A program made the position numbers and the translations under genes. A model generated the notes under the pieces. It saw nothing but the letters and a program-made list of their open reading frames with translations. It ran no database searches and was not told the origin of the DNA. From NCBI RefSeq assembly GCF_008017545.1, contig NZ_VRTZ01000001.1, forward strand, positions 62,001-126,000: a stretch of 64,000 bases of DNA, given 5' to 3'. Below, one piece after another: positions 1 to 14,096 of this stretch (within the stretch, counting starts at the first letter, position 1; each line of letters opens with the position of its first letter). This stretch comes from Homoserinibacter sp. GY 40078 (lineage in GTDB: Bacteria > Actinomycetota > Actinomycetes > Actinomycetales > Microbacteriaceae).

Positions 1-1429
1 TGAACAGGTCGAGGTCGGTGAGGAAGGTCCCCACCTCGGAGACGTCGTTCTGGTTCGCGCCGGTGAAGGCACGGCTGAACGGGTCCACGATCAGGAACTC
101 GACTTGCTGCTCGCGGAGGTACTCGGCGAGGGCTTGGCGGTCGGCGGTGTGAGCCAGCGGGTTCCGACGACCGCGGAGGTTCACCAAGATCATCCGGTCG
201 CCCGGCACGTCCGCCCGGGTCGCCCAGTGGGCGAACTGCCCGCCGGTCACCTCGTAGTTGAGGACGGCCACCCGGCCCCCAACCGGTTCCACCTTGAAGG
301 ACTCGAGGAAGGGTTCGCCTGTGAGCAGCGAGTGGGCGAGGTTCACCACGAAGGTTGTCTTGCCGGTCTTGCGCTTGGCCGAGACGATGGTCGATCCGCC
401 GAGGAGGATGAGCCCTTCTGCCCGGTAGCGGGTTGCGTCGGCCTCGCCGAGGTAGTTCGCGAGCGGTCCGGCGTCGAACGGTTCGGCGGGGTCCAGTTCA
501 CCTAGCCGGTGATTGAACGCGCGCCGAGCTTCGTACTGCACGAGCATCCGCTCGACGGCCTTGGCCACGTCCGCCTCGTGTGATGCCGCGACCAGCGCCT
601 CGGAGTGGTTCCTGAGGTCGGCCTTCCAGACCGAGCGGGTGGTCTTGCCGAAGTCCTCGTAGTCCACATCGACCAGCTCCATCGCCGACTTGCAGGCGCG
701 GATGTAGGCGTCGTAGTGGCCCCGGTGCAGGTAGGCGTAGTGCCCCGCCACGTCGCGCAGCCAGTCGTTGGTGCGCCCGTCGCCGCGTTCGGGTGGGTTG
801 CCGAGAAGGTCCCCGAGGGTGGTGCGGTTGCCGCCGGGTGTCACCGTCCCCTGTGGGGCTTCGCGCTCGCGGGCTCCTCGTGAAGTCGCGGCAGCGCGCA
901 GGGCCTCGGAGGCCACGGGCAGCTCCTCGATTCGCGGGAGGGACTCTCCCGTGGCCGTCCGGTACTGCTGGCCGCCGATGCTGGAGCCCGGCGCGACGAT
1001 GTAGCCACCCTCGGCCTTGATGTCGACCGACTCGGCGACCTGGCCGTTACTGCTGGCCACCCCGGTCCCACGCCAGATGAGGTGGGTGCCGCCAGTCGGG
1101 GTGACGCAGGCGAAGCCGGGTTCGTGCTCGACGTCGGCGACGAGGCCCGCCCAGTTGGCAGGTCCGGTGCCGCCGTTCTTCACGTCGAGGTCGGCGACGA
1201 TGATGCCCGATGGCCCGCACGAGATGCCGATGTTGGCGTCGGGCCGGGCCGTCCACCACCGGCGGATCTGTTCGGGGTCGCGGGTGGCGTCCTTGAAGCC
1301 GTGGCGAGTGAGTGGTTCTTTGCCATTGGGCTTGAGCGGGTGGACGGAGTAACCCGCCCCGACGTATGCGAGTGCCAGGTCGAGCATCGAGCTCGCGGGG
1401 GGCTCGTCCTGTGGTTGGTATCGGACCAT
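1..1429 (-). CDS. Prim-pol / AAA ATPase replication protein (partial, runs off left edge)
   Basis: The C-terminus lies outside the window; 476 residues are visible. Residues about 10-170 match a bifunctional primase-polymerase domain: the metal-binding pair in VADLDVKNG, a GGTH motif and the APGS loop. A second domain from about residue 340 is a RepA/DnaB-like AAA ATPase with a Walker A-like SAKRKTGKTT and a Walker B-like EFLIVDPFSR. Such fusions prime and unwind DNA for phages, satellites and integrative elements. The ATG shares its A with the stop of the 59-aa gene upstream, so the two are translationally coupled. The first glycine of Walker A is replaced by alanine. No integrase, terminase or capsid gene is nearby, which favours a satellite or degraded prophage over an intact phage. 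Confidence 0.85.
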   Translation of the reverse strand, partial: MVRYQPQDEPPASSMLDLALAYVGAGYSVHPLKPNGKEPLTRHGFKDATRDPEQIRRWWTARPDANIGISCGPSGIIVADLDVKNGGTGPANWAGLVADVEHEPGFACVTPTGGTHLIWRGTGVASSNGQVAESVDIKAEGGYIVAPGSSIGGQQYRTATGESLPRIEELPVASEALRAAATSRGAREREAPQGTVTPGGNRTTLGDLLGNPPERGDGRTNDWLRDVAGHYAYLHRGHYDAYIRACKSAMELVDVDYEDFGKTTRSVWKADLRNHSEALVAASHEADVAKAVERMLVQYEARRAFNHRLGELDPAEPFDAGPLANYLGEADATRYRAEGLILLGGSTIVSAKRKTGKTTFVVNLAHSLLTGEPFLESFKVEPVGGRVAVLNYEVTGGQFAHWATRADVPGDRMILVNLRGRRNPLAHTADRQALAEYLREQQVEFLIVDPFSRAFTGANQNDVSEVGTFLTDLDLF

Positions 1430-1891: not shown

Positions 1892-1926
1892 ACGACCCCC
1901 TCGATCTACTCCTTCGAGGGGGTCGT
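1892..1926. terminator. 12-bp perfect hairpin
   Basis: The arms ACGACCCCCTCG and CGAGGGGGTCGT pair perfectly around an 11-base loop. There is no T tract on either side, so intrinsic termination is uncertain. A cruciform or protein-bound origin element is an alternative. Confidence 0.4.
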
Positions 1927-2258: not shown

Positions 2259-2792
2259 ATGGTTGACGAAGGGATCGACTCGGAAATCGCCGCGATGTCA
2301 GCAGTCGCGGGGGCGCTCAACCCGCTGGAACCGGAGCAGCAGGTTCGCGTGCTGCGCTGGGCCGCCGACCGGTACGGACTCGCTGACCTCAAGTTCGCAA
2401 ACACCGGGGCGCGCGGCGCTGCCGAAGAACTCGACGACTCACGCGGGAGCGGTGCGGGCGGTGACAAGCCGAGCTACAGCTCGATTGATGAGCTGTTCGA
2501 GAGCGGCATCGCCAAGACCAACACCCAGAAGGCACTGCTCGCGGCTTACTGGTTCCAGGTAGTCGAGGGCAAAACGGGCTGGCAGTCGTACACCCTCAAC
2601 ACCGCGCTGAAGAACCTCGGCATCGGCATCACGAACATCACGGACGCGCTCGCGACTGCCGAGAACCAGAAGCCCGTGCTGGTCATGCAGACCTCGAAGA
2701 CCGGCAAGAGTCGCCAGGCCCGTAAGACCTACAAGCTCACCGCCGCGGGTGTGAAGGCGGTCGAGGCGATGCTGAACGGCAATGCTGACTGA
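2259..2792 (+). CDS. Hypothetical protein A of the HEPN three-gene operon (177 aa)
   Basis: Start ATG is set by GGAAGGAG six bases upstream. Residues 1-45 are a short helical segment (LEPEQQVRVLRWAADRYG). Residues 46-75 are a Gly/Ser/Asp-rich linker. Residues 76-175 form a compact domain with an invariant-looking AYWFQ at 96-100 and a C-terminal YKLTAAGVKAVEAML resembling the end of a winged helix. The domain is visibly paralogous to the C-terminal domain of the third gene of the operon. The last 11 bases overlap gene B. No named family was recognised. I infer a DNA-binding, sensor or partner role beside the HEPN protein. Confidence 0.8.
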   Translation: MVDEGIDSEIAAMSAVAGALNPLEPEQQVRVLRWAADRYGLADLKFANTGARGAAEELDDSRGSGAGGDKPSYSSIDELFESGIAKTNTQKALLAAYWFQVVEGKTGWQSYTLNTALKNLGIGITNITDALATAENQKPVLVMQTSKTGKSRQARKTYKLTAAGVKAVEAMLNGNAD

Positions 2793-3543
2793 CCCGAAGA
2801 CCGCGTTCGCCGCGCTCCCGGCGACCCTCGCGAAGGATCTCCTCGACGCCTACGCCGAGATCGTGACCAACTTCGCCGAGGGCCGCTGGGAGCCGTCGGA
2901 GCTGAACGGAGGAAAGCTGTGCGAGGCCGTCTACACGATCGTCGATGGCTACATGAGCGGCACCTTTGCGGCGAGAGCCAGCAAGCCCCAGAACATGCCC
3001 GCGGCCTGCAAGGCGTTCGAGCAGACCTACCCGACTGCCAACCGATCGCCTCGCATTCAGATCCCCCGGATGATCGTCGCGCTGTATGAGATTCGGAACA
3101 ACCGCGGCGTCGGCCACGCCGGAGGCGACGTCGACCCGAACCAGATGGATGCCACCGCCGTCCTCTACATGAGCAAGTGGCTCATGGCGGAACTCGTTCG
3201 GCTCCTTCACGGGCTCACGACCGATGAGGCAGCCGAGATCGTCGAGGCGCTCGTCGAGCGGAATGTCGCGCTCGTCCACACGTGGGATGACAAGCGCCGC
3301 GTACTCAAGACCGGTCTCACCTGGAAGCAGCAGGTCCTTCTACTTCTCTCCAGCGTGACCGAGGCGACCGAGGCCGAACTCGTCGCGTGGCTGGAACACA
3401 AGGACGTCCGCACCCTCCGCAAGAACGTACTGCGACCGATGCACACGACCCGCCTGCTCGATTACGACGAGACCACCAAGGTCCTGCGGCTCCTGCCCCC
3501 GGGCATCAAAGAGGCCGAGACGCTTATCAATCTGCACAGCTAG
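2782..3543 (+). CDS. HEPN-like protein B, candidate abortive-infection effector (253 aa)
   Basis: The N-terminal half is helical and contains R105-N-N-R-G-V-G-H112. This matches the R-x4-6-H catalytic signature of HEPN ribonucleases and resembles the RN-x-x-G-x-G-H sequence of Abi_C-type abortive infection proteins. The C-terminal part (about 165-253) reads as a winged helix: TWKQQVLLLLSSVTEATEAELVAWL, then a wing and GIKEAETLI. It starts inside gene A (11-base overlap) and is followed 24 bases later by gene C. HEPN proteins of this kind often cleave RNA in phage defence or toxin-antitoxin systems. Function here is inferred from motif and context only. Confidence 0.75.
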   Translation: MLTDPKTAFAALPATLAKDLLDAYAEIVTNFAEGRWEPSELNGGKLCEAVYTIVDGYMSGTFAARASKPQNMPAACKAFEQTYPTANRSPRIQIPRMIVALYEIRNNRGVGHAGGDVDPNQMDATAVLYMSKWLMAELVRLLHGLTTDEAAEIVEALVERNVALVHTWDDKRRVLKTGLTWKQQVLLLLSSVTEATEAELVAWLEHKDVRTLRKNVLRPMHTTRLLDYDETTKVLRLLPPGIKEAETLINLHS

Positions 3544-3567
3544 TAACCCGACCGAAAGGAGCAACAC

Positions 3568-4122
3568 ATGAGCGAGTCCGACTTCGACCTCCGGGTCGAG
3601 CGAGTTCGAAAGGCAGCCGAGGTGATCGGCGGCCTGCCCTCGAAGGCCCTGCAGGCGGAGGCGTTCCGGTACCTGCTCGGAGACGTCCCGGCGACATCGC
3701 CCGCACCGGAGGTTCGGGTCCCCTCTGAAGGCGGCGAAGCTCCTCCCGCGTCCCAGAAGCGGGCTCGGAGTTCCTCGGCCACCAAGACGGCGATCACGCA
3801 GGACCGGGACCTCAACCTGTTCCCGGAGGGCAAGACCTCCTTCAAGGATTTCGCCGCCACCAAGAGCCCGAGCAACAACAACGAGCGGTACGCGGTCGCC
3901 GTCTACTGGCTGCGCGAAGTCGCGCAGGTTGGCGAGGCGACGGTGGCCCAGGTTGTCTCCTGCTACCGCAACGTCGGCTGGGCACTGCCCACCGACGTCG
4001 CGAATGCTGCATCGCAGGCCGTGAAGGCGACCTATCTCAGCTCGGGCAAGGCCGACGACCTCAAGCTCAGTTCCACCGGCATCAACCTGGTGGACACCAC
4101 GCTCCCGCGCGCGAAGAAGTAG
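3568..4122 (+). CDS. Hypothetical protein C, paralogue of protein A (184 aa)
   Basis: A strong AAAGGAG lies before the ATG. The N-terminus is helical (about 1-40). Residues 41-85 are a low-complexity Pro/Ser/Glu linker. Residues 90-182 repeat the architecture of protein A: N-N-N-E-R-Y-A-V-A-V-Y-W aligns with T-N-T-Q-K-A-L-L-A-A-Y-W, and LKLSSTGINLV aligns with YKLTAAGVKAV. Two diverged paralogues flanking one HEPN protein suggest a heteromeric sensor or antitoxin arrangement. The family itself was not recognised. It ends 39 bases before the convergent tail gene. Confidence 0.8.
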   Translation: MSESDFDLRVERVRKAAEVIGGLPSKALQAEAFRYLLGDVPATSPAPEVRVPSEGGEAPPASQKRARSSSATKTAITQDRDLNLFPEGKTSFKDFAATKSPSNNNERYAVAVYWLREVAQVGEATVAQVVSCYRNVGWALPTDVANAASQAVKATYLSSGKADDLKLSSTGINLVDTTLPRAKK

Positions 4123-5982: not shown

Positions 5983-6807
5983 ATGACCTTGGTGCAGATT
6001 GCGGCTGATCCTGCCCGTGGTGCATGGATTTGTGCGGACACTCGGATAACCAGTGCAGGAACGGTTGTCGATGCCGAGAGGTCTAAGATCATGCGACTTT
6101 CGACCGCGAATGGGGAAATTGTGTTCTCATTCTTCGGGCGCGCAGAGATCGACGGTATCTCAGTTCCGAAATGGATCGCCGCCACGTTCGACCGACAATG
6201 GCAGACGAACGAGGAAGCGCTCCGTCGACTTCTTGACAGGCTCAATCGTGAGGTGAGGATGAAGGAGCGCTTTCCCCTCTACATCGTCGGAGTGGTCATT
6301 GATCGCGATTTGAGCGGAACCGGAACGCAGATGGCGGTGTTTCAGACGGGGCCGTATCGGTACCCGAATGGCTCGGTCGAGTTCCCCTACCAGGTAAAGG
6401 TGATCCGAGAAATCACCCACTTCGCTGGCGGGAGCGGCGGTCTGAGGATCCGAGAGTCCGAGAAGCAGGAGGTTCTTCGCGTAGTCGGTGTCAACTCCAA
6501 ACCGAAGGACGTGGCCCGACTTCTTGCTCGGGTCAACCGAAGCACGGCGCTCCGCATGACGACTGGCGCGGGCGCAGGTACGGTCGGCCCGGCAGCCATG
6601 ACGGCTTACCTACCGTTCAGCGGTACTCACAGCGTCGGATTCGAGGTACACGTCGAGAAGTTCACCAAGCCGTTCCAGCCGGTGATGCCATGGGTCGTTC
6701 ACATTGATTGGCAAGGGCTCGGCTCATTCGACTTCACAAGTTTCATGGAGGAGGCGGAGGAGTACTTCAAGGCGGTCGAGAGAGGCGAAATCCCCGAGGA
6801 GGATTAG
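5983..6807 (+). CDS. Proteasome-like Ntn-hydrolase candidate (274 aa)
   Basis: The N-terminus reads M-T-L-V-Q-I-A-A-D-P-A-R-G-A-W-I-C-A-D-T-R. Removal of Met would expose Thr1, with Asp18 in CADTRIT and Lys34 in RSKIMRL. This spacing closely follows Thr1/Asp17/Lys33 of HslV and proteasome beta subunits. A Gly-rich stretch (TTGAGAGTVGPAAM) lies near residue 200. Length is greater than HslV (about 175 aa). No ATPase partner is next to it. The gene sits on the plus strand inside minus-strand phage genes and 36 bases before a membrane coiled-coil gene. Assignment to the Ntn fold is my inference from pattern only. Confidence 0.6.
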   Translation: MTLVQIAADPARGAWICADTRITSAGTVVDAERSKIMRLSTANGEIVFSFFGRAEIDGISVPKWIAATFDRQWQTNEEALRRLLDRLNREVRMKERFPLYIVGVVIDRDLSGTGTQMAVFQTGPYRYPNGSVEFPYQVKVIREITHFAGGSGGLRIRESEKQEVLRVVGVNSKPKDVARLLARVNRSTALRMTTGAGAGTVGPAAMTAYLPFSGTHSVGFEVHVEKFTKPFQPVMPWVVHIDWQGLGSFDFTSFMEEAEEYFKAVERGEIPEED

Positions 6808-6843: not shown

Positions 6844-7964
6844 ATGACGACGCCCGACGGTCCGGTTGAGCCACCACCGACTCGAATCCGATGGGGCCTC
6901 CTTGTCCTCTTTGCGATGGCGGGCGTCGCGTCACTGTTCTTCGCGTGGCTCATCGTCGCTAGCGACAAGGACGGTGACCTCGGCGGGTTCTGGTCCGGAC
7001 TGCTCGTTAGCGTTGGAAGCACACACTGCTCCTCGCCGCCGTCGTGTTCTGGTTCGAGCGGTCCATCGTCCGAGAAGCTCGACGCGAACGCGCAGAGGTT
7101 GTGAACGTGGCACAGCAAGCCACCGATGCTGCTCGGCTGGCGACCGAAGCGGCCAACATCGCCACACAGGAAGCGCAGACGGCTCGCGCGGACTTGTCGA
7201 CTCGTATCACTGAGATCGACAAGCAGGTCGCCGAGCGTCGTAGTCAGAAGGCGACCGAACAGGCCGAGACTTTCGACTCAATCGGTGAGGAGGTCTCCCG
7301 CGAGAGCATCTTGAAAGCCCTCGCGGCGGCAGCCGAGATCGAGGCGATCCAACGGTTGGATCAAGGCATGGGCGGTGCCACGCACTCACTTATCGTGCGA
7401 GCGGGAGAGACTTTCGGGGCCCCCCTCGTGAGGGTTCTCTATACCTCAGGTTGGAACGTCTTCGGCAATAATCCCGGCAGCCTCGATCTCGCGTTTGTGC
7501 CAAAAGATATGGAGCTTCGGCGGAGTTACGCACGCGCCTACGCGATCACGTGGGACCACGAGACATCGCCGGTGGAGGCCGTACAACGCCTGCAGAAGGT
7601 GATGGTGCGAGCGGGTTACGGCTGGCTCTCGAAGCAGTTCTCAGCAGCGGCCCTCTTCCGTAATCTTCAAGTCGCACTGAGAGAAGCAGTGGCGGCAAGG
7701 GAAGGCGATAGCTTGACAATCCTCTCTGGCGACCCCGTCGGCGAAATGGTCAGCCCTGACTGCTTCGTTACTACTGGTGGGGTCGAGTTCGTGGAGGCTT
7801 GGGTGAAGGTGGGCGCGCAGAAGTTTGAGTACGTCGACCCGAGCGAGGGACGGATCCTCTCCGACCTCCCCGAGCCATCGGAGGACGTCGGCGCAGTGCT
7901 TTGGGACGTCGCGATTCAGCGGGGCCAGATGCATTTCAATGGCCAAACCGACACGACCTTCTAG
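6844..7964 (+). pseudogene. Two-TM coiled-coil protein split by a frameshift (372 aa if restored)
   Basis: The frame from ATG 6844 encodes TM1 (WGLLVLFAMAGVASLFFAWLIVA), a short loop, and the start of TM2 (GFWSGLLVSVGS), then leaves frame at 7021-7026 (ACACAC). The frame carrying on from 7023 gives TLLLAAVVFWFERSIV, which completes TM2. It continues through a coiled coil (about 75-125, rich in Q/A/E repeats) into a soluble domain of about 240 residues with no recognised family. Removing one AC dinucleotide restores one 372-residue protein. This may be a true disruption, phase-variation-like slippage or a sequencing error. It follows the Ntn-like gene closely and may act with it at the membrane. 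Confidence 0.65.
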
Positions 7965-10421: not shown

Positions 10422-10531
10422 ATGATCGTGATCGCATATTCGGCTGTCGCGGCGCCGTCGTCGCGACGAAGACGCGTGCTGATAGGGGTACGCGCGCGGC
10501 GGGCGGCACCATTCGAGACGTGGGTCTGCAT
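10421..10531 (-). pseudogene. Truncated DUF4244 (tad-locus pilin-like) gene, 5' fragment
   Basis: A strong GGAGGAG precedes the ATG. The product begins MQTHVSNGAARRARTPIST and reaches RLRRDDGAATAEYAITII. This is the hallmark N-terminus of actinobacterial DUF4244 proteins, small pilin-like proteins encoded with TadA/TadB/TadE. The expected hydrophobic helix and C-terminus are missing; the frame instead runs into unrelated basic sequence. I infer that the element at 1-10,420 interrupted or deleted the rest of this gene and the TadE-like genes that usually follow. Confidence 0.65.
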
Positions 10532-10888
10532 GGAAGCTCCTCCATTTATCGGGGCACGGCGACTCCATGCTCCGACGTGGGCGCACCCTGCGGCGGCGCT
10601 CGGAGGAGCTCAGGGGAGGACGAGCCACTCCCGCAACCAGTGGAGGACTCGTGACCCTCCTCGGAGACCGCACATGAGCGCCTCGACGTTCCCCCGGTTT
10701 CCCCTAAATCTCAGCTGTGTAAACACCCTGTTTCGCTGAGGTCTTCGGTTGACAAGGTCTCAATGCTCCCTAGATGGCGCTGGATACGTTCAGCCCGAGA
10801 CCCAACGGCGGGGACGCCGCCGCAGGGTTGCGAATGGCGACGTCGACGCAGGGCTCACCACCTCATCCATTCCTCACTCAGGAGAAGT
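10532..10888. promoter_or_regulatory. Divergent intergenic region, DUF4244 remnant / cell-wall hydrolase
   Basis: No gene is supported in these 357 bases. A plausible plus-strand promoter is TTGACA at 10749-10754, a 16-base spacer, and TAGATG at 10771-10776, about 110 bases before the GTG of the anchored hydrolase. Minus-strand promoter signals for the DUF4244 remnant were not identifiable. Confidence 0.45.
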
Positions 10889-13800
10889 GTGTCCACATTT
10901 CGATTGAGGCGGTCGGCGTCTGCCGTCCTCCTCTGCGCCCTCGGCGCATCCGTATTCACCGCCATCCCCGCATCCGCGGCGGACGACGGGGTGGTCGCTC
11001 AGGGCGATGACTGGTCTGTGACCACCTCGCCCGGTGGTTACCTCGTCACCTACGACCTCGACGAGCCGCTGCCGATGGTCGATGACGCGCCGACGATCAT
11101 CGTCGACGGCGTCCCGCTCGGTCTCGCGACCGAGTCGAGCGACGGCCTGTCGCTGACCCTCACCACCAACGACCCGCGCGTCACCTCGGCCCGCGACGTC
11201 GAGACCGGCTGGTCGTCGGGCGCCGACGTGCAGGACCTCGAGGGCTCGGCCGACGACGCCGACTCCGCCCCCGACACCCGCACGCTCCTGCGTCAGCTCG
11301 CACCGCTCACGGCGCCCGCGGCGGCCGCAGCAGACCCGGCCGACACCGGTGAGTACGCGGTGACCGAAGCCGAGTACGACTTCGGCGACCGCGCCGTCGC
11401 CCTCGCCGCGATCGGCGACATCCGCGGCGAGATGACCGGAAAGCTCTACCTCACGAGCGCGTCCGGCGAGCGCCCGACGATCGTGCTCCTGCACGGACGC
11501 CACACCTCGTGCTCGGGATCCGGATCGAACCCGCTGCGCTGGCCCTGTGGCCCGACGCAGATGAACATCCGCTCCTACCTCGGATACGAGGGAACGGCAC
11601 GCGCGCTCGCGTCGCACGGCTTCAACGTCGTCTCGATCGCCGCCAACTCGATCAACTCGAACGACAACCAGCTCGCGCTCGACCGCGGAGCGCAGGCGCG
11701 CGGACAGCTCATCCTCGACACCCTCAGCTGGCTGAAGAACGCCAACGCCGGCAAGCCGGTCGCGTTCGACGACATCGCGTGGCCGGTGGGCGACGCGGAG
11801 CCGGTGACCGTGACGCGCACCCTCGATGAAGCTCTCACCCTCGCGACGACGCGCACGGACCAGCCGGCGGCTCCGTCGGGCGTGACCGCGGCGTCGCTCA
11901 AGGGACGCTTCGACCTCACCAACATCGGCATCATGGGTCACTCCCGTGGTGGCGAAGGTGTCGTCTCGGCGGCGACGCTCAACCAGGGCCTCGCGAAGCC
12001 GTTCGGCATCGTGTCGGTGCTGCCGCTCGCGCCGGTCGACTTCGGTCGCATGACGCTGCCCGACGTTCCCACGGCGGTCTTCCTGCCCTACTGCGACGGC
12101 GACGTGTCGAACCAGCAGGGTCAGCACATGATCGACGACTCGCGCCACGCGTTCGGAGACGACGTGCTCCGCTCCGCGGTGTGGGTGATGGGTGCCGACC
12201 ACAACTTCTTCAACACCGTGTGGACGCCTGGCCTCTACCCGGCGGCGACGAGCGACGACTGGCGCGACAGCAACGGCCTGCCGACTCCCTCCACCTGTCA
12301 CACGAGCAGCCCGACGCGTCTGACCGCCGCGCAGCAGTACCAGGTGGGTGTGTCGTACATGACGGCGTTCTTCCGCCTGACCGTGGGCGGCGAGACGGAG
12401 TTCCAGCCGCTGTTCGACGGATCGATCAAGCCCTCGACAAGCTCGACCGAATACGCGGACGTGCGCATCATGGCGTCCCAGCCGACGTCGGCCACGTCGC
12501 TCGTGACCAGCTTCGAGCAGAACAGCTCGCTCATCCGCACCTCCGGAGACGCGAGCGCCAAGATCTGCACGAACATGAACGGCCGCACGGTCGCTCAGTC
12601 GCTGCCCTACTGCACGGAGACCAAGGGATCGTCGCAGGTTCCGCACTGGACGCCGGCTACCCTCGCCACGAACGTGCCGGAGTACCCGGTCACGCGACTG
12701 CTGTGGACCTCGGCCGTGCCGACGAATGTCAGCACCGGCCAGCTGCTGATCGGTGTGCCGAGCACGATGCGGGACGTCTCCGGACGCAGCCAGCTGACGC
12801 TCAAGACGGCACCGGATGAGAGTGTGACGGCCGGCACTGACTTCACGATCGAGGTGGTCGACGGTCACAACCACACGTTCAGCGTGGCGGCGTCGGAGAT
12901 CAACCCGCTCGCGGTGAACCGGATGCCGGGTGGCGACTCGCGGCTCGACAAGATCGTGCTGCAGCAGCTCACGATCCCGACGGCCGACATGACCGGCATC
13001 GACCTGACCGATGTGCGTGAGATCCGTATCAAGGCGGCCATCGGGGCCGACGGGACGGGGAACGGCGGGGTCTACCTCTCCGACCTCGCCTTCGACACCC
13101 CGAGCCTCGGCACCGCCGTCGTGCAGACCCGCACCACGGTGAACGTCGCGCCGACCATCCTCGAGGAGGGCAACGCCCCCGGAACCGGCCAGGTCGCGGT
13201 GTACCTCAACCGCGCCGACAGCAAGCCGATCACCGGGTACGTGAGCGTGCTGGGTTCGACCTCCGGGTCCGTGGGCGTCGCGATGCAGCCTGTGACCTTC
13301 GCCCCCGGCGAGGTCTGCAAGGCAGTCGACGTGCCGACGCAGGGCAACAGCACGACGTCGACAGCGGCGTCCTCCGTCTACACCGTCAGCGTCACCAACA
13401 CTTCGAACGCGGTGATGGGTGCGGGCGCATTCGCCAACCTGACGATCCGCGAGGACGACGGGGTGACCGGCGGCGCCACGGCGCTACCGGAGGTCGGTGT
13501 GCAGGGCGACCCCTGTGAGGAAGCGCTCGGGAAGGACAAGAAGCTCACCGCGAGCACGTCCAAGCCGAAGCGTGGCGACACCGTGACGGTCACCGGTTCC
13601 GGGTTCCGTGCCGGTGAGTCGGTCTCGCTCGAGATGCACTCCGAACCCGTCGCTCTCGGATCGGTGGTGAGCACCGACGGTACGGTCTCGTTCACCGTGA
13701 CGATCCCGGCCGACGCGGAGTTCGGATCGCACACCTTCGTCGCGACCGGCTACGGCTCGGGCACCGTGGGCACGACCGCGTTCGCAGTGGTCGACCCGAG

Positions 13801-14020
13801 CGCTCCGACCGGCGGCGGCTCGGGCAGCGGATCCGGCGGCTCGGGTAGCGGCTCGGGCGGCGGGACCGCGGCTCCGGCTGGAGACGGATCCCTGGCGGGT
13901 ACCGGTGTCAACGCGGGCCAGGTCATCGGCTGGGTGGCGTTCAGCGTGATGCTGCTCGCCGGCGGTGGCCTCCTCCTCGTGCTGCGCGGCATGCGTCGCC
14001 GAGTGGACGCCGACCAGTAG
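10889..14020 (+). CDS. Cell-wall-anchored alpha/beta hydrolase with LAGTG sorting signal (1043 aa)
   Basis: The GTG start is chosen by AGGAG four bases upstream and because a signal peptide (RLRRSASAVLLCALGASVFTAIPASA) follows immediately. The N-terminal half is an alpha/beta hydrolase: VLLHGRH oxyanion region near residue 197, nucleophile elbow GHSRGG near 350 and a likely catalytic His in GADHNFF near 436. Later regions look like beta-sandwich and Ig-like domains (TASTSKPKRGDTVTVTGSGF). A Gly/Ser linker leads to LAGTG near 1002, a TM helix and RGMRRRVDADQ, i.e. a sortase substrate. It probably acts as a surface esterase or lipase. It lies antiparallel inside the tad locus, between tadB and the DUF4244 fragment. 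Confidence 0.85.
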   Translation: MSTFRLRRSASAVLLCALGASVFTAIPASAADDGVVAQGDDWSVTTSPGGYLVTYDLDEPLPMVDDAPTIIVDGVPLGLATESSDGLSLTLTTNDPRVTSARDVETGWSSGADVQDLEGSADDADSAPDTRTLLRQLAPLTAPAAAAADPADTGEYAVTEAEYDFGDRAVALAAIGDIRGEMTGKLYLTSASGERPTIVLLHGRHTSCSGSGSNPLRWPCGPTQMNIRSYLGYEGTARALASHGFNVVSIAANSINSNDNQLALDRGAQARGQLILDTLSWLKNANAGKPVAFDDIAWPVGDAEPVTVTRTLDEALTLATTRTDQPAAPSGVTAASLKGRFDLTNIGIMGHSRGGEGVVSAATLNQGLAKPFGIVSVLPLAPVDFGRMTLPDVPTAVFLPYCDGDVSNQQGQHMIDDSRHAFGDDVLRSAVWVMGADHNFFNTVWTPGLYPAATSDDWRDSNGLPTPSTCHTSSPTRLTAAQQYQVGVSYMTAFFRLTVGGETEFQPLFDGSIKPSTSSTEYADVRIMASQPTSATSLVTSFEQNSSLIRTSGDASAKICTNMNGRTVAQSLPYCTETKGSSQVPHWTPATLATNVPEYPVTRLLWTSAVPTNVSTGQLLIGVPSTMRDVSGRSQLTLKTAPDESVTAGTDFTIEVVDGHNHTFSVAASEINPLAVNRMPGGDSRLDKIVLQQLTIPTADMTGIDLTDVREIRIKAAIGADGTGNGGVYLSDLAFDTPSLGTAVVQTRTTVNVAPTILEEGNAPGTGQVAVYLNRADSKPITGYVSVLGSTSGSVGVAMQPVTFAPGEVCKAVDVPTQGNSTTSTAASSVYTVSVTNTSNAVMGAGAFANLTIREDDGVTGGATALPEVGVQGDPCEEALGKDKKLTASTSKPKRGDTVTVTGSGFRAGESVSLEMHSEPVALGSVVSTDGTVSFTVTIPADAEFGSHTFVATGYGSGTVGTTAFAVVDPSAPTGGGSGSGSGGSGSGSGGGTAAPAGDGSLAGTGVNAGQVIGWVAFSVMLLAGGGLLLVLRGMRRRVDADQ

Positions 14021-14072: not shown

Positions 14073-14096
14073 TCCGTGTGTCGGCGACGGCGCGCC

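Follow-up and report, generated by a model that had tools for sequence, protein, structure and literature searches.

What do three short genes carried by mobile DNA of Homoserinibacter sp. GY 40078 do, and do they serve the host or the element on which they lie? HEPN effectors are central in prokaryotic immunity, and, to our knowledge, the silencing and activation of small HEPN proteins are understood in few cases. The genes (A, B, and C) are located in the window, i.e., the whole stretch of 64,000 nucleotides that was analyzed, in which a first-pass annotation had described them as an operon specifying an HEPN-like protein (B) flanked by two paralogous partners. We assign a probability of about 0.6 to A-B-C being a mobile module of the immunity or toxin-antitoxin type, in which the HEPN RNase B would be switched by its winged-helix partners A and C.

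Results

The gene set A-B-C

The three genes were found at the coordinates, on the strand, and in the frames reported for them (Table 1), as was the 11-base overlap between A and B. B and C are separated by a gap of 24 bases, and the sequence contains AAGGAG 5' of A and AAAGGAG 5' of C. Comparison with the nearest relative of the window locus (L012) yielded dN/dS pairs of 0.28/0.97 for A, 0.17/1.10 for B, and 0.47/1.30 for C, the start of C in L012 having been placed by us at the end of B. Silent changes thus exceed amino-acid-changing ones in all three genes, which indicates purifying selection and, therefore, maintained genes.

Table 1. Position of the A-B-C genes, their predicted domains and motifs, and nearby genes (window coordinates; negative values lie before position 1)
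Feature	Coordinates	Strand	Basis or remark
Gene A, 177 aa	2259..2792	+	Start ATG at 2259; translation
Winged helix of A, residues 76-172	2484..2774	+	Model; profile kinship to the C-terminal domain of B
Gene B, 253 aa	2782..3543	+	Translation; HEPN-like helical domain, then winged helix
HEPN-like domain of B, residues 14-143	2821..3210	+	Model set against the HEPN description in excerpts of PMC3710099
E48 codon, invariant acidic residue, helix 2 (43-59)	2923..2925	+	86/86 aligned relatives
R105-x6-H112 motif, RNNRGVGH	3094..3117	+	R105, N106, R108, and H112 kept in 86/86
Winged helix of B, residues 181-252	3322..3537	+	Model; Foldseek matches
Gene C, 184 aa	3568..4122	+	Translation; profile matches (linker and domain of the A winged-helix family)
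Prim-Pol gene	-508..1429	Opposite to A-B-C	Flanks A-B-C on one side
Tape-measure gene, 577 aa	4161-5894	Opposite to A-B-C	PHROG 58, 2.5e-49
ORF beyond the tape-measure gene	5983-6807	Same as A-B-C	
Further ORF beyond the tape-measure gene	7044-7964	Same as A-B-C	

The operon had also been said to run against the surrounding phage genes. This holds for both flanking genes, which are on the opposite strand, but not for the next two genes, which share the strand of A-B-C. One of the latter (5983-6807) has a weak match to a phage HslV-type peptidase family (PHROG 1040, E 0.052). A scan for sigma-70 promoters found no site, and one for terminator-like sites found two, versus 2.4 in shuffles. Approximately 330 bases upstream of A, at window positions 1892-1926, the DNA carries a perfect 13-base inverted repeat (ACGACCCCCTCGA / TCGAGGGGGTCGT) with a 9-base loop and no T run, which may be a terminator or regulator site.

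Protein B

The AlphaFold2 model of B, built from 62 family members (57 of the 80 kept loci included, L005 excluded), reached a mean pLDDT of 90.9. It predicts helices at residues 14-32, 43-59, 88-106, and 119-143, and an insert at 72-82. This HEPN layout of two helical hairpins plus insert was read from secondary structure, coordinates not being compared. Structure prediction, which the first-pass annotation had named as a possible refuter, thus returned an HEPN-like arrangement of helices. The proposed R105-x6-H112 motif is present (residues 101-116, LYEIRNNRGVGHAGGD) and falls at an HEPN-appropriate place of the helical N-terminus in the predicted model, with R105 at the end of helix 3 (88-106) and H112 in the loop (107-118) preceding helix 4.

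Excerpts of PMC3710099 describe the HEPN superfamily as having two helical hairpins, an insert between helices 2 and 3, a polar residue after the R, and an acidic residue in helix 2, typically within Ex3[KR]. B resembles this description in its hairpins and insert, in N106 as the polar residue following R105, and in E48 within helix 2, whereas no HEPN family was matched by profile. Ex3[KR] lacks its basic residue in the B protein of the window (T52) and has it in those of L006, L007, and L008. Six residues, R105, N106, R108, H112, E48, and D123, are invariant across 86 aligned proteins; the invariance of R105, N106, and R108 is partly by design because one of the two patterns used to fetch the loci contained them, whereas H112, E48, and D123 were part of neither pattern.

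The C-terminal winged-helix-like region noted earlier was seen in the model as well (Table 1). Its Foldseek matches were MarR-type proteins and AspA, over 70-83 columns, with probabilities of 0.99-1.00 and E values of at least 0.12. Among the best 50 of the 489 Foldseek matches to B, which were winged-helix proteins and long helical chains, there was no HEPN entry and no match of any kind at E <=0.001. Foldseek against viral models gave no match at E 0.001, and the best hit among solved-structure sequences (E 0.75) was not meaningful. In hhalign, the helical domain of B did not match significantly either Ymh (probability 1.08, below the reversed control at 1.54) or a three-member Abi_C profile (1.40; reversed control 0.11). 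As neither Foldseek nor hhalign matched it to HEPN, the assignment is based on the predicted layout and the invariant residues and not on a measured match; so judged, B is a probable HEPN endoribonuclease. The genome of the window also encodes a Ymh-family (HEPN-type) domain elsewhere, at G000:C1:1092312-1092650 (L117), within an ORF of 417 aa.

Proteins A and C

A was modeled by AlphaFold2 with a mean pLDDT of 85.7 as a helical hairpin (residues 4-38), a poorly ordered flexible linker (approximately 45-70), and a winged helix (76-172). MepR/PadR-type regulators were its best Foldseek matches (probability up to 1.00, E at least 0.01), and MepR/MarR its matches among solved-structure sequences (E at least 0.13). 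A and C had been regarded as diverged copies with a common A-x-YW, which reads AAYW at residue 95 of A and AVYW at residue 111 of C. Direct BLAST between the two proteins is not significant (E 0.38-0.40), and profile matches bore the kinship out: C matches the A protein of L011 at 4.6e-4, the iterated A profile retrieves C at 3.3e-16, and the iterated C profile retrieves the A frame at 5.9e-24. As far as sequence tells, C is built like A. Alignment of the A winged helix with the B C-terminal profile by hhalign gave a probability of 91.5, against 0.09 for the reversed profile. Because of this match and the profile link between A and C, the same kind of winged helix is probably common to all three proteins.

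Partners of B

The partner census comprised 85 loci: the window, the 80 kept loci, and L006, L007, L008, and L011. Window sequences alone served as seeds for the A and C profiles, and upstream ORFs for the profile of a third type (T). In 82/85 loci, B is accompanied by a partner of A, C, or T type on its own strand, at a distance of up to 2.2 kb on the upstream side or 0.9 kb on the downstream side. This count is biased towards partners, since iteration of the A and C profiles drew on these loci themselves and T came from upstream ORFs. The sole check outside the partner-profile set was L093, which belongs to neither the census nor the tree; it has an A-type gene (6.9e-52) that overlaps a distant B by 14 bases. 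Partner-less loci are L036, in which the contig ends approximately 207 bases upstream of B, and L046 and L063, both with an upstream ORF of similar size that the partner profiles did not recognize. The 4,879 ORFs of the loci contained 97 partner-profile matches, 96 of which are in the partner zone by B; the remaining one is a T in L022, on the opposite strand.

One partner, then B, is the commonest form, as C-B (33 loci), A-B (20), or T-B (15). The other arrangements are T-A-B (4), T-T-B (3), A-B-C (2), C-A-B (2), T-C-B (1), C-B-A (1), and T-B-C (1). Weak entries in this list are L040, where the A match is to a fragment of 72 residues a good distance upstream of B, and L031, with another ORF between T and B. 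A C-type partner is present in 40/85 loci. Two partners occur in 14/85 loci, or 13 if the two T matches of L039 are, as is probable, one broken gene. A and C are found together with B in four loci, perhaps five: the window and L012 (A-B-C), L030 and L045 (C-A-B), and possibly L050 (C-B-A), in which the second partner lies 641 bases downstream and both partners score nearly equal with the A and C profiles. Co-occurrence of A, B, and C, the absence of which had been put forward as a possible refuter, is thus recurrent in the neighborhood search. Conserved A-B-C synteny stood with respect to a partner next to B, but not with respect to the strict A-B-C order, which is rare (2/85).

Over 80 rows of the B tree, at least 11 changes in the type of upstream partner are required, as compared with a mean of 35.9 and a lowest value of 30 in shuffles. 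Partners track the B lineage, yet they get exchanged. Their N-termini and linkers are variable, and a single conserved B is combined with one or another of three partner families.

Distribution and transfer

B was found in 4/199, 2/394, and 2/396 genomes of three samples, in each of which the genome of the window was counted. A scan in which each species was represented by a single genome returned 148 loci encoding a B relative, and the best 80 were kept. Searches of IMG/VR viral contigs produced pattern matches and no confirmed relative of B, and those of phage records no relative of B or A; a plasmid search with three different queries gave one haloarchaeal record and no other. A plasmid gene of the haloarchaeon Natronomonas pharaonis (L005:4935-5807) carries the B motif, and a same-strand gene directly upstream of this B-like gene is absent.

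A phylum name was attached to 77 of the 85 rows of the B tree, with 20 names overall. On this quick tree, which excludes L005 and has 37/82 weakly supported inner branches, the labels require 35 changes (minimum possible, 19; shuffle mean, 48.4), with the caveat that bins may contain foreign contigs. The labels are clustered yet much mixed. Horizontal transfer of B appears likely from these sequences.

The mobile element

A-B-C is cargo of an integrated element of approximately 14.7 kb, extending from window -4303 to 10421 (L009 from 5697) and encoding a serine recombinase (Resolvase, E 2.7e-38), a Prim-Pol/AAA protein, A-B-C, a tape-measure protein, and others. Homology to four congeneric genomes (L152-L155), which are without the element at this site, stops at window -4304 and resumes near 14,076-14,093. 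The insertion splits a gene that we take to be a Flp-type pilin gene; its left half ends at -4304, its right half occupies 10,422-10,465 (versus L152), and the halves overlap by 2 bases. Approximately 17 codons at the end of the recombinase frame are within pilin DNA. Between the right pilin half and the resumed homology there is a 1085-aa ORF (window 10763-14020), missing here in the four relatives, with a signal-peptide-like start and a weak PETase-like match (E 0.00015, below cut-off).

In the 9.1-kb stretch of L012, A, B, and C were the only genes of the element to be found, as were A and B in the stretches of L013 and L011. With the other element genes not found in these stretches, the module moves independently of the element. 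In G040, the B relative sits between lspA/rluD-like and dnaE-like host genes, named by eye.

Partners beyond B and neighboring genes

The partner-family profile matched in 6/199 relatives, the genome of the window included. At L131:4882-6326, a gene judged by eye to be C-like shares 4 bases with a different HEPN-like gene, whose product has a winged-helix-like N-terminal part and LRNRCGH at the C-terminus. By eye, this pair looks as if the partner had been exchanged between HEPN-like effectors. Proteins related to the L131 effector, with R-x4-H motifs, are encoded at L157:522-1911 (LRNRCGH) and L159:626-1941 (RRNECAH). They follow other upstream genes, with overlaps of 20 and 1 bases, respectively, and may represent a second branch of the same design; the upstream partner in L159 may resemble DUF5343. 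Four further A-like genes (L132-L135) have no recognized HEPN gene adjoining them, so the partner family is wider than the A-B-C module.

Near neighbors of B loci include defence genes as well as many housekeeping genes. DarT, DarG, restriction-modification, and AbiEii were among the PADLOC matches listed (25 of 274 families), in a scan that covered 148 of 356 genes (the first batch of 150 minus two at locus ends) and had no control set, so no enrichment is claimed. Just 3' of the B locus of L076, at 6923-7825, lies a fused nucleotidyltransferase/HepT-like gene, i.e., an HEPN-type toxin-antitoxin.

Discussion

Our proposal builds on genes, synteny, an invariant candidate active site, winged-helix kinship, and a mobile location, all of which are observed, together with predicted folds of A and B. 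To these we add, by inference, complex formation, inhibition, a trigger, RNase activity, and a benefit to the host. B would be an HEPN endoribonuclease effector, whose winged helix docks onto the related domains of its partners, and A and C would act as a sensor/antitoxin pair, in which the small helical hairpin of A may oligomerize. In resting cells, the partner or partners, produced beside B by coupled translation, would keep B inactive. A trigger sensed by the partner, most likely a phage component or a change in nucleic acid or metabolite, would then cause B to be released or dimerized, and the ensuing RNA cleavage would stop growth.

The same effector could also be wired differently. A and C may be activators, B being inactive alone and cutting RNA when an A/C sensor complex binds phage nucleic acid or protein. 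Such trigger-tracking sensors would be expected to have variable N-termini and linkers and to come as three families on one B, as the partners do. Antitoxin-toxin pairs, on the other hand, typically have overlapping genes with the partner before the effector, which is the order seen here and speaks against activation, and sequence does not separate inhibition from activation. According to excerpts of PMC11087260, a prophage HEPN effector, Tha, is switched on by tail proteins, a precedent that favors activators; on balance, we hold this reading to be possible but somewhat unlikely. Alternatively, A-B-C would serve the mobile element instead of host defence, through addiction/stabilization or transfer control, with winged helices on its promoter. 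Its place as cargo beside a serine recombinase and a Prim-Pol gene, the likeness of the A winged helix to MarR/PadR regulators, and the perfect inverted repeat upstream of A would fit this function. Relatives that reside at other sites, such as that among host genes in G040, and the stretches of L012, L013, and L011, where other genes of the element were not found, argue against it, and we consider element service unlikely. Confidences in these readings overlap because the activator and element-stability explanations share the same effector.

Doubts can also be directed at B itself. HEPN domains devoid of the conserved residues are regarded as binding nucleic acids without being active (excerpts of PMC3710099), and B could accordingly be a catalytically dead, HEPN-like RNA binder within a regulatory complex of the three proteins. 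H112 and E48, which were in neither search pattern, are nonetheless invariant in 86/86 proteins, which is unexpected for a dead enzyme and leaves this reading improbable. We give equally little credence to B being an unrelated helical fold with R-x6-H acquired by chance. It would account for the lack of a significant match to any known HEPN family or solved structure, but the hairpins plus insert, the place of the motif, the polar residue after R, and the helix-2 acid agree with the HEPN description, and a second HEPN-like gene (L131) has a partner of the same kind.

With B taken as an HEPN RNase switched by winged-helix partners, a broader design can be put forward tentatively, at somewhat less than even odds. 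A-B-C would exemplify unnamed, widely transferred RNA-cutting immune modules, in which an HEPN/winged-helix effector is combined with interchangeable winged-helix sensors of at least three families, used singly or as unlike pairs. The same sensors would operate on other HEPN effectors, sensors and effectors would evolve separately, and docking would obey a shared winged-helix code. What lends this interest is one conserved effector family with exchangeable partners under 20 phylum names, in which effector and partner share a related domain. If true, nature has performed a swap experiment, the same effector with different sensors, and a large set of uncharacterized modules awaits study, unnamed in the family libraries searched.

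The first-pass annotation did not recognize A-B-C as a named defence system, and our searches agree. None of the three proteins exceeded a family cut-off in Pfam or NCBIfam or matched PHROGs; in PADLOC-DB 2.0.0, B and C had no match and A weakly matched LmuC (E 0.017). DUF3197 was discarded as a name for B (E 0.00076, below cut-off), as were PadR and LmuC for A, given their weak matches. Searches of the literature (open PubMed Central, with excerpts of PMC3710099, PMC11087260, and PMC12839542) turned up no name for the arrangement. The B motif RNNRGVGH resembles the RN-x2-G-x-G-H of Abi_C (PF14355), e.g., RNSIGDGH in L094 and RNLQGTGH in L095, in spacing and glycines. Membership of B in Abi_C was rejected, as matches stay under the family cut-off, with 1/63 B members at E 0.046 and the hhalign probability at 1.40.

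HepT/MntA consists of a small HEPN effector and a partner encoded next to it. A-B resembles it in this respect, but the partner in A-B-C is a winged-helix protein from one of several families, whereas that in HepT/MntA is a nucleotidyltransferase. Assignment of A-B-C to HEPN-MNT, pairs of which are mentioned in excerpts of PMC3710099, was dismissed, A being predicted as hairpin plus winged helix and no Pfam nucleotidyltransferase appearing at E 0.1 in 62 partner proteins. The same excerpts describe EC042_2821, an HEPN family with wHTH fusion and also REase, and note none of their HEPN families with the partner arrangement of A-B-C. Tha of Staphylococcus aureus prophages is, as excerpted in PMC11087260, a tail-activated protein with HEPN at its C-terminus and a RNSIMH motif of x4 spacing. 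B is like Tha in its arginine-histidine motif and as an HEPN effector on mobile DNA, a prophage in the case of Tha. It differs in its x6 spacing, its winged helix, and its one or two partners, the term "helix-turn-helix" being absent from the Tha text in those excerpts. HEPN effectors with partner genes are an already known kind; within it, the sequences suggest that A-B-C is probably a phage defence or toxin-antitoxin system with exchangeable winged-helix partners.
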